From Alcanivorax sp. (GTDB lineage: Bacteria > Pseudomonadota > Gammaproteobacteria > Pseudomonadales > Alcanivoracaceae), in contig JAIUME010000008.1 in the NCBI GenBank assembly GCA_022565695.1, forward strand, positions 1-64,000: a stretch of DNA of 64,000 nt, given 5' to 3'. Position 1 is the first letter of the stretch. Each line of letters opens with the position of its first letter. The notes under the pieces are model-generated. The model was not told the DNA's origin. It was given only the letters and a program-made list of their open reading frames with translations, and made no database searches. The translations under genes and the position numbers were made by a program. This document shows, piece after piece, positions 4,334-6,389 of the stretch.

Positions 4334-4635
4334 TACCGGGCCGCCCCACAGGGCAGCGATGGTGAGGGTCTTGTCAGGGAATAAGCGGTCGATCTGATCA
4401 CGCAGGCCTCGCCGGTAATGCTCTCGGAAGGCGCAAGTATAGAGCCTGGGGGCGATTACGGAAAATCCGCCCTTGGTATCAGTGGCGCTCGCAGAGGCGC
4501 CCGCCGCCTTGCCATGGAAGCCCTGTCTGGATGCCGGTTTACAGGCGGCTTACCCATTGCTGGCAGAGTGCCACCATTTTTTATTATAAAAAAAATATTC
4601 ATTGAAAGATTTTTTCTGCTCTGACATCGTCGTTT

Positions 4636-4723: not shown

Positions 4724-4760
4724 AAAAACAGGAAATAATAATGACATGGGGGTCAGAAAA

Positions 4761-6389
4761 ATGAAAAACCTACTCAAAGTGGCCGGCATTTCGGTGTTGG
4801 CTGCGGCACTTGGTGCCTGTAGCGCTGAAGACGGTGCCGGGCCGGATCAGGCTGCCAGGGTCCAGGGGGCAGCATCTCCGGAGGCCGCAGCAGTGCAAAC
4901 GCCACCACCGGGATCGTATCGGCTCAGTTGCAATAACCTTTCGGTGAACGACGACGTGTTGTACGCATCCTGCAGGAAGCTGGACGGCGGCACCGCCTCT
5001 GCCCGGCTCAGTAATGTCAGCGGGTGTCTCGGTCAGGTCATGAATGGCGGGGATATCGGCAATATCGATGGCAGTCTGATCTGCATTCCGGATCTGCCGA
5101 AGGCTGCGCCGGGTACCGTCTTTCCGGAGTCCGAGCTGACGATCAACGGCTGGGTCTACGGGGGAGATGAGCAGGCCATTCATCGCCATGCCTGGAATAT
5201 CTGGGCCGGGTTGACGCAGCAGGCGGGCACTGTGGACGGCCAGCCGGTACGCGCCTTTGAAACCTGGGCGACGCCGAGCAACATGATCTATCGCATGCAT
5301 AATGAAACGGCGCCCCCGCAGCGGCGTCTGGATCTGGAGCCAGCGCGGCAGTTGCGCAACGTGTCGCCGCAGGTGGCTGCCACCGCTGACGGCCAGGGCA
5401 GTGGTGATGTGAGCGCAGACGGTGATACACACATCGCCGTATCGGTGGCTTATAACCCGCCCGCCGCACGGCATGCGATCAATAACCGCCTTTTCCTGGA
5501 AAGCACGCTGAAGCAGCTGATCAAGGACGGTTACACGGATATCCCCAACTTCCCGGTCAACGCCATTACCATCAAGCCGGTCTACAAGGTGATCAATGCC
5601 GCGAATACCGTGAATGGCATTTACACCTTCCCGGGCTGGCCTGGTACACCGGAGCCGGCGAAGGCCTTCGGTGAATCCGACTGGGACGCCTGCGTGTATG
5701 TGGATGTCACCGGGTTAGGCCGTGGCGGCAACAGCATTGATGCCGGGTGCCAGGGGCGTAATGCCGACAATACCTTTTACCTGAATAACTTTATCCACCA
5801 CCCGGTCACGGCGGCGGATGCCGAGTACCTTGCGGCTCAGCTGAGCGTCAAGGTGGAAGCAGGTGATTACGTGATACTGGTCGGCATGCATGTGGCCACG
5901 CGGGAAATCAAGCGCTGGGCCTGGCAGACCTTCTGGTGGTCGGCGAATCCTGACGCGCCTTACCCGCCCAGCAGCCAGGCCATCGCGGCGGCACGCCCGG
6001 CGGTGCTGGATGAGGCGGCAGCGCACTATGCCATGAGCGTGGCGTACAGCATGGTGTCGCCCGCGCAACCGATTACCGGGGGTGAAAATGTGGGGCAGCC
6101 GGTGATCAGCTACAACCCGCATCTGGAAGCCGGTTTCGATCCGGGTGTGTTCCAGATATCACGGCCGATCAATGGCACAGACCGCTATGACTATGGCGTG
6201 CAGACCAACTGCATGACCTGCCATGGCCTGGCCGCCTACGACCCGACGGTGGATTACAGCAACGATGCCAATCGCGAGAAACCGTATGCCACGGATTTCT
6301 ACATGAGCCTGGATGATGCGGTCTTCGACGGCAAGTTGAAGCTGGATTTTGCCTGGTCGATCCTGGGTGTGATGGAGCTTGACAAGTAA
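4761..6389 (+). CDS. Lipoprotein with cyanovirin-N-like domain and C-terminal CxxCH motif
   Basis: Start ATG 4761 is preferred (MKNLLKVAGISVLAAALGAC, a lipoprotein signal with lipobox LGAC); ATG 4746 would add five residues. After the mature Cys comes a short Ala/Pro/Gln-rich linker. Next is a region with the CVNH pattern, from GSYRLSCNNLSV through VLYASCRKLDGG to GGDIGNIDGSLIC, with four Cys near residues 57, 71, 89 and 108. About 380 residues of unrecognised globular sequence follow. Near the C-terminus a CMTCH motif (6210-6224) could bind one c-type haem or simply be a Cys pair. CVNH domains are known carbohydrate-binding modules. The protein is expected to be anchored in the outer membrane facing the periplasm or surface. 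No operon partner is seen; sufE is convergent downstream. The function is unknown. Confidence 0.75.
   Translation: MKNLLKVAGISVLAAALGACSAEDGAGPDQAARVQGAASPEAAAVQTPPPGSYRLSCNNLSVNDDVLYASCRKLDGGTASARLSNVSGCLGQVMNGGDIGNIDGSLICIPDLPKAAPGTVFPESELTINGWVYGGDEQAIHRHAWNIWAGLTQQAGTVDGQPVRAFETWATPSNMIYRMHNETAPPQRRLDLEPARQLRNVSPQVAATADGQGSGDVSADGDTHIAVSVAYNPPAARHAINNRLFLESTLKQLIKDGYTDIPNFPVNAITIKPVYKVINAANTVNGIYTFPGWPGTPEPAKAFGESDWDACVYVDVTGLGRGGNSIDAGCQGRNADNTFYLNNFIHHPVTAADAEYLAAQLSVKVEAGDYVILVGMHVATREIKRWAWQTFWWSANPDAPYPPSSQAIAAARPAVLDEAAAHYAMSVAYSMVSPAQPITGGENVGQPVISYNPHLEAGFDPGVFQISRPINGTDRYDYGVQTNCMTCHGLAAYDPTVDYSNDANREKPYATDFYMSLDDAVFDGKLKLDFAWSILGVMELDK

Follow-up and report, generated by a model that had tools for sequence, protein, structure and literature searches.

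A putative haem c lipoprotein of Alcanivorax joins a single CVNH repeat to a large domain with a predicted cytochrome P460/c'-beta-like fold

The gene described here lies in an Alcanivorax sp. genome of 3.53 Mb, within a 64,000-nucleotide stretch of contig JAIUME010000008.1 (assembly GCA_022565695.1); this whole stretch is termed the window. The open reading frame from 4746 to 6389 on the plus strand encodes 547 residues, with the stop at 6389. Residue numbers follow this frame; subtracting 5 gives the numbers of the 542-residue protein that begins at 4761. Based on inspection of the upstream sequences of two relatives (L002 and L003), the equivalent of the ATG at 4746 meets a stop or sits out of frame, and a GGGGG tract usable as a ribosome-binding site is common to both. 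The start at 4761, as given in the preliminary description, is therefore preferred. The lipobox of the signal peptide is found in only some relatives, while others have an ordinary signal peptide, by inspection. The features of the gene are as follows:

4761..6389, plus strand: whole coding sequence, 542 residues from the likelier start at 4761 (547 from the ATG at 4746)
4748..4752, plus strand: GGGGG, likely ribosome-binding site, common to L002 and L003 by inspection
4761..4820, plus strand: lipoprotein-type signal peptide, with the lipobox LGAC ending at Cys25, by inspection
4908..5090, plus strand: single CVNH repeat, residues 55–115, from Pfam, NCBIfam, a PDB profile search and the predicted model
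5088..6386, plus strand: large haem domain, residues 115–547, with a P460/c'-beta-like predicted fold, from conservation and the predicted model
5574..5576, plus strand: Lys277, invariant, in a low-probability alignment with the P460 cross-linking lysine (Lys106 of 6amg)
5889..5906, plus strand: the stretch from His382 to Glu387 (HVATRE), both end residues invariant in the family alignments
6210..6224, plus strand: CMTCH haem c attachment motif, residues 489–493, the only one in the protein and conserved in the family

Among named organisms, Alcanivorax limicola comes closest at this gene, with 83% identity. Upstream, a palindrome, TGGCAGAGTGCCA, lies at 4561–4573 of the window between divergent genes, and similar forms stand upstream in L002 and L003. 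The upstream blocks TTGAAAGA and CTCTGACA are also shared, and ACATGGGGGTC stands just before the start; all of these were found by eye. The neighbors in the window, likewise named by eye, are genes for an AEC-type permease and for SufE-like and SufT-like proteins. The same genes adjoin it in L002, L003 and L040–L042, two of which are named Alcanivorax records; judged by their equal identities, L002 and L040, as well as L003 and L042, look like the same genomes, and the named records may not be independent. Of the six further genomes of the genus that were searched, three (G002, G004 and G005) keep the gene together with these neighbors. In an empty-site comparison aimed at a gain of the gene in Alcanivorax, the three loci of the same genus that lack it (L102–L104) extend only about 1.5 kb beyond SufE. 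No functional link to the gene follows from the permease, SufE and SufT neighborhood. Farther upstream in the window, an ORF at 854–1573 carries a C-terminal Ntox16 domain (Pfam, 8.1e-6) behind a stretch that looks RHS-like but reaches only 0.012 with Pfam RHS; an ankyrin-repeat ORF at 1515–1946 overlaps it, and an RHS-like tail without a Pfam match was recognized by eye at 1988–2398.

To look for partners of the gene, we compared 37 loci together with as much as 5 kb of flanking sequence. No neighboring family was common to at least three distant genera; the ORF clusters found in at least three genera consisted only of the gene itself, antisense ORFs and synteny internal to Roseobacteraceae. 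Simple FNR/NnrR and NsrR patterns gave loose matches in four of 26 upstream flanks, none of them conserved and none in the flank of the window, and an NO-responsive promoter was accordingly rejected. Given the lack of a conserved pattern of this kind and of a shared distant neighbor family, nothing ties the gene to nitrogen chemistry. The genome encodes CcmE of the cytochrome c maturation pathway, with a match over its cut-off.

The preliminary description had placed a cyanovirin-N-like lectin domain behind the lipoprotein signal. A CVNH-type module is indeed present there, but it consists of one repeat instead of the usual tandem pair: only residues 55–115 match, and the haem domain follows. 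When a profile of 13 CVNH modules was compared with the PDB, the best 12 rows were all cyanovirins; native CV-N was found at E 2.2e-4, and two designed tandem cyanovirin dimers were found at E 2.4e-7 and 4e-7. In the predicted model, the module aligns with 6x7h and 2pys at a VIA Z of 7.4 and an rmsd of 1.5–1.7 over 50 residues. Similarly, CVNH proteins fill the best 21 Foldseek rows for the whole-protein model (E 0.010 to 0.22). The aligned range on the cyanovirin target runs from residue 2 to 101 or 102, which we read as the range expected when a single repeat is predicted to form one pseudo-domain. The family models respond less clearly. Pfam CVNH matches the excised domain (residues ~53–123) at E 0.018 and 16.2 bits, under its cut-off of 24.5 bits, and gives no match on the whole protein; it matches only four of 38 members at E up to 1, at best 0.0023. 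The NCBIfam mannose-binding lectin model matches 13 of these 38 at E up to 1 (best 3.3e-5) and the window protein at E 0.026, with 15.2 bits against a cut-off of 80.

Moreover, Cys62 and Cys76 of the module have the spacing of Cys8 and Cys22 in cyanovirin-N, and two further cysteines, Cys94 and Cys113, are present. The module also has an N-I-D-G turn like that of cyanovirin-N. In the tree, 15 CVNH-bearing rows form one clade, with a support of 100/100 as a split and 99/98 for the fork. The module is present in 14 of the 15 rows (in L045 by eye), and in L008 the contig ends within it. This single clade fits one gain of the module, which the support alone does not prove. Collectively, the profile and the predicted fold indicate that residues 55–115 are related to CVNH and amount to half a domain.

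The remainder of the protein had been described as some 380 unrecognized residues with a CxxCH-bearing tail. Instead, it appears as one domain with a predicted P460/c'-beta fold, and by inspection this core occurs in many relatives without any lectin. Counting the window's own row, CxxCH is kept in 38/38 rows, in 50/50 after divergent members were added, and in 60/60 with the viral and plasmid members, for which 23 viral proteins were reduced to nine distinct ones; such constancy makes a chance motif unlikely. Among the 50 rows, 59 core columns are at least 90% identical and 21 are fully identical. In the 60-row alignment, which includes far-branching members, 16 of the 21 columns checked are identical in all rows: C489, C492, H493, H148, W150, W174, K277, M381, H382, E387, W391, W398, N457, P458, E461 and W537. 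Judged from these alignments, the conservation of the core is the pattern of an active site and not that of a linker. Because all 60 rows agree at CxxCH and at 13 further residues, haem c is very likely attached at CMTCH, and the single motif noted in the preliminary description is of the haem c type.

No model of Pfam or NCBIfam names the haem core family, and a literature search of titles and abstract starts, covering CVNH–cytochrome combinations, P460 in lectin fusions, in Alcanivorax or in phage, and phage c-type cytochromes, found no description of it. The earlier impression that the combination is not a described family is upheld to this extent. The only model found for the family is PHROG 19967, a phage family of unknown function, which matches residues 118–534 (numbered from 4761) at E 1.1e-29 and so belongs to the same core family; in contrast to the window protein, the viral members found here lack CVNH. 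Searched against the PDB, the window sequence alone gave no match, and the whole-family profile gave a single row at chance level (4gxz, E 0.14). For the alignments, L024 and L026 were started at a chosen non-ATG codon, the C-terminal extension of L004 was cut from one alignment, the 100-aa fragment L064 was left out, L047 was taken as its longest open frame (its match row reports one TAA), and set A3 used ten of 11 loci, without L066.

The haem core family is rare and patchy in the genomes sampled. It was found in five of 57 genomes of the genus, family and order and in six of 398 genomes of the phylum, the window's own genome being included in both counts, and in eight of 395 genomes of the phylum of Mesonia, including the center and one 100-aa fragment. 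It is also patchy in the family of the ammonia oxidizer Nitrosospira, with seven of 120 genomes, four of which were known beforehand. A genome of another genus in the same bacterial family as the window (G014, locus L043) holds a very divergent core copy with SNCMTCH and the invariant residues. Given this divergence, the bacterial family may have acquired the haem core on more than one occasion.

Viral contigs carry the core at 23 loci (L140–L162), where large contigs hold it as lipoprotein-type genes. Their nine distinct core proteins are 35–39% identical to the window protein over the best segment and lack CVNH. The haem motif and the FP...K motif are present in 23/23 loci, and Lys277 is aligned in 9/9 distinct proteins. 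The viral records span 14 to 348 kb. A terminase was found in four of nine representative records (154, 187, 288 and 348 kb), and none was found in the other five, of 14 to 150 kb. In one contig (L140:7935-9287), the haem core is flanked immediately by a phage endolysin on one side and a tail-collar-like gene on the other, and in another (L158:7875-9227), four small ORFs lie between the core gene and the endolysin. In the tree, the viral rows group with Flavobacteriaceae rows (fork 98/98), and a single origin of the viral rows is unsure, with a support of 78/40. The GenBank phage collection contained no match to the haem core.

Three Sinorhizobium meliloti plasmids carry a distant member that is 28–29% identical. 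Two of these regions were examined, and Nif11 and RiPP-maturation radical-SAM genes lie upstream in just one of them; on plasmid p_1 (L163:5899-7128), the distant member follows genes annotated as a Nif11 family and a RiPP-maturation radical-SAM protein. Furthermore, L024, L026, L028 and L058, which belong to a Flavobacteriaceae-type clade, have an oxidase upstream in the same open frame as the haem domain, and Pfam Amino_oxidase was confirmed in the two fusions tested, L024 and L028. A frame of this type (L024:2478-6257, ~1260 codons) comprises a flavin amine oxidase, an unassigned stretch, a hydrophobic segment whose end is lipobox-like, and the haem domain. By eye, L024 seemed to have a lectin of jacalin or griffithsin type between its amine oxidase and haem domain; this was rejected, as Pfam gave no match and griffithsin reached only E 0.93.

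To assess the fold of the core, for which a structure prediction had been suggested, we used AlphaFold models. The whole protein was predicted with a pLDDT of 84.4 and the core alone with a pLDDT of 87.0 and a pTM of 0.90. In VIA-align, which re-aligns only chains already ranked by Foldseek (998 for the core), the first 16 rows for the core model were all P460/c'-beta proteins, at Z 5.5–6.6 and rmsd 3.6–5.6, all below the Z of 8 under which the tool warns that a match may mean merely a common arrangement; the rmsd is also high. These alignments covered 126–142 residues of targets that are 135–160 residues long, and the next fold, a PNPOx-like protein, reached Z 3.6. With the whole-protein model, the same group appeared at Z 5.8–6.7. 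The best single match of this kind was the cytochrome c'-beta 7ead in both models, at Z 6.7 for the whole protein and 6.6 for the core. Foldseek itself gave no significant match for the core model; its best P460 row, 9hrk_A, ranked fifth, with E 2.6 and a probability of 0.08. At the sequence level, the Pfam Cytochrome_P460 model (PF16694) matched none of the 38 members at E up to 1 and nothing in the window's own genome. According to a 2025 review (PMC11928373), the P460 fold is unique to the cytochrome P460 and c'-beta classes. The distance to the next fold and the extent to which the targets are covered favor a true match to the five-stranded P460/c'-beta fold, the only one that stands out, and the models suggest at moderate strength that the core folds in this way.

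According to the same review, a lysine bonded to the haem edge is the defining feature of cytochromes P460, Lys106 being the cross-linking residue of 6amg (NsP460), whereas the solved c'-beta proteins have Phe or Met at this position; in c'-beta proteins, a lysine introduced there can form the haem bond (PMC11928373). We therefore compared the haem family with 32 of 33 P460-family rows, leaving out L096, in which a P460-type domain with an IKE lysine motif is joined to a multihaem N-terminal region with several further CxxCH. For the whole-family profile, L058 (973 aa) was cut to its last 430 residues, and hhalign kept 42 of 50 haem-family rows after its own filter. With this profile, FPVNAITIKPVYKV is displayed on FRDGTVIVKELTSV of L065, with Lys277 on its lysine, at a probability of 7.6%. 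L065 closely matches the solved P460 6amg, in which its aligned lysine corresponds to Lys106. When the core-only profile was used and the haem motif was left unmasked, the displayed region was CxxCH and not the lysine. The unmasked hhalign score is not specific: P460 reached 28.9, with 100 shuffles at or below 18.4 and the reversed profile at 10.9, and class I cytochrome c scored higher, at 30.4, so this score was rejected as proof of P460 kinship.

When CxxCH was masked in both profiles, the score against the 32 P460 rows was 22.9, in the region of Lys277. None of 200 column shuffles exceeded 19.3, class I cytochrome c scored 14.0, and the eight clusters of neighboring ORFs reached no more than 17.3. 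The hhalign probabilities for the family against P460 are 2–9%, and those of the alignments that place Lys277 on the P460 lysine are 2–8%. Later strands follow in P460 order only in a low-confidence unmasked path, which was not reproduced with the motifs masked. A lysine occupies the cross-link column in 17 of 32 P460-family rows, as compared with 60 of 60 haem-family rows for Lys277; the 15 rows without it indicate that the P460 fold tolerates both lysine and other residues. Glu387 and Glu461 are also invariant, and neither falls on the distal carboxylate column (Glu96/Asp102 of active P460s) in the low-confidence unmasked alignment. Collectively, the alignments suggest that Lys277 is likely, if unproven, the equivalent of the P460 haem-linking lysine.

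Based on these observations, we consider it an evenly balanced proposition that the protein is an envelope-anchored, P460-like haem enzyme or gas binder, acting on small N-oxides or gases, with a CVNH module that docks on glycans. The protein would be exported and then acylated at Cys25, which would anchor it to the cell envelope by lipid, and the Ccm machinery of the host would attach a single haem at C489 and C492. The 430-residue domain would fold around a P460/c'-beta-like sheet with large insertions, with Lys277 placed where the P460 lysine joins the haem edge, and a polar active site may be formed by the invariant His382, Glu387 and Glu461. Most likely, the protein would work at the cell surface, where it would oxidize or trap a small nitrogen oxide or a similar compound, for example hydroxylamine or NO, while the single CVNH repeat may tether it to a glycan. 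Because Lys277 is invariant, P460 chemistry is our leading guess. More tentatively, and with rather more doubt than confidence, the family may represent an undescribed, enlarged class of P460 with a lysine-bonded haem, lying beyond the small P460s of nitrifiers and methanotrophs, passed among bacteria, plasmids and large phages (beside endolysin and tail genes in one of these, as an envelope lipoprotein), and having in one clade acquired half a CVNH domain that docks on glycans.

The preference of both models for the c'-beta protein 7ead, together with the P460-family rows that have no lysine at the cross-link column, would also suit a haem c protein of the same fold that only binds NO or CO, as a carrier or sensor, without a lysine–haem bond or turnover. 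This is improbable in our view, as Lys277 is present in every row, an introduced lysine can form the bond in c'-beta proteins (PMC11928373), and the many invariant polar residues look catalytic in our judgment. Alternatively, the protein may be a monohaem c protein of unrelated fold, an electron carrier or oxidase partner, with the P460 match reflecting a common beta arrangement. The non-significant Foldseek result for the core, the unmasked profile score that does not exceed that of class I cytochrome c, and the oxidase in the same frame in the four Flavobacteriaceae-type members all point that way. However, no other fold comes near in the VIA lists of Foldseek-ranked chains, the masked match around the lysine beat the controls tried, and the invariant residues outnumber, as we judge it, the apparent needs of an electron carrier; we regard this alternative as rather unlikely.

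Finally, single CxxCH motifs also occur in proteins other than cytochromes, and the motif may form a disulfide or metal site in a haem-free, glycan-binding envelope protein. The two cysteines and the histidine are identical in 60/60 rows, and CcmE is present in the genome, both of which argue against this. As an exported family keeps the motif without exception, such a zinc or disulfide reading is a minor one, and we hold it to be highly improbable.

With regard to known systems, the protein resembles cytochrome P460 (PF16694; 2je2/2je3, 6amg and 6hiu) in the predicted fold of the core, as matched by VIA-align, in the C-terminal CxxCH and in a lysine at the probable cross-link column. In contrast, the haem domain comprises ~430 residues, about three times the 143–160 of the solved chains matched, and the family has its own invariant Trp, His and Glu residues and, in one clade, a lectin. 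Since the Pfam family model was applied and matched no member, the protein should not be filed as a cytochrome P460. Similarly, the likeness to cytochrome c'-beta (7ead, 6hih and 7s5o) lies in the predicted fold, with 7ead at Z 6.6–6.7, and the differences lie in the same size gap and in the Phe or Met that the solved c'-beta proteins have (PMC11928373) where the haem family probably has lysine. The module resembles CVNH (PF08881; 3ezm and 5k79) in one repeat, by sequence and by model, and in the Cys8/Cys22 spacing; it differs in having one repeat rather than two, in its two extra cysteines and in being joined to a haem domain. Since it lacks one of the two repeats, the module should not be classed as a complete CVNH domain. 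What is new here, as far as sequences and models indicate, is an enlarged P460/c'-beta-like haem domain that is joined in one clade to half a CVNH lectin.

In the 2025 review (PMC11928373), the lysine–haem bond is described as unique to the small cytochromes P460 and is tied to hydroxylamine and N2O chemistry. If our reading is true, Alcanivorax, flavobacteria, roseobacters, rhizobial plasmids and large phages would share in this chemistry through a larger and scattered family with the P460 lysine. It would in itself be unusual for a phage to carry a haem c lipoprotein next to a lysis gene, and the joined lectin would provide a natural example of half a CVNH domain.
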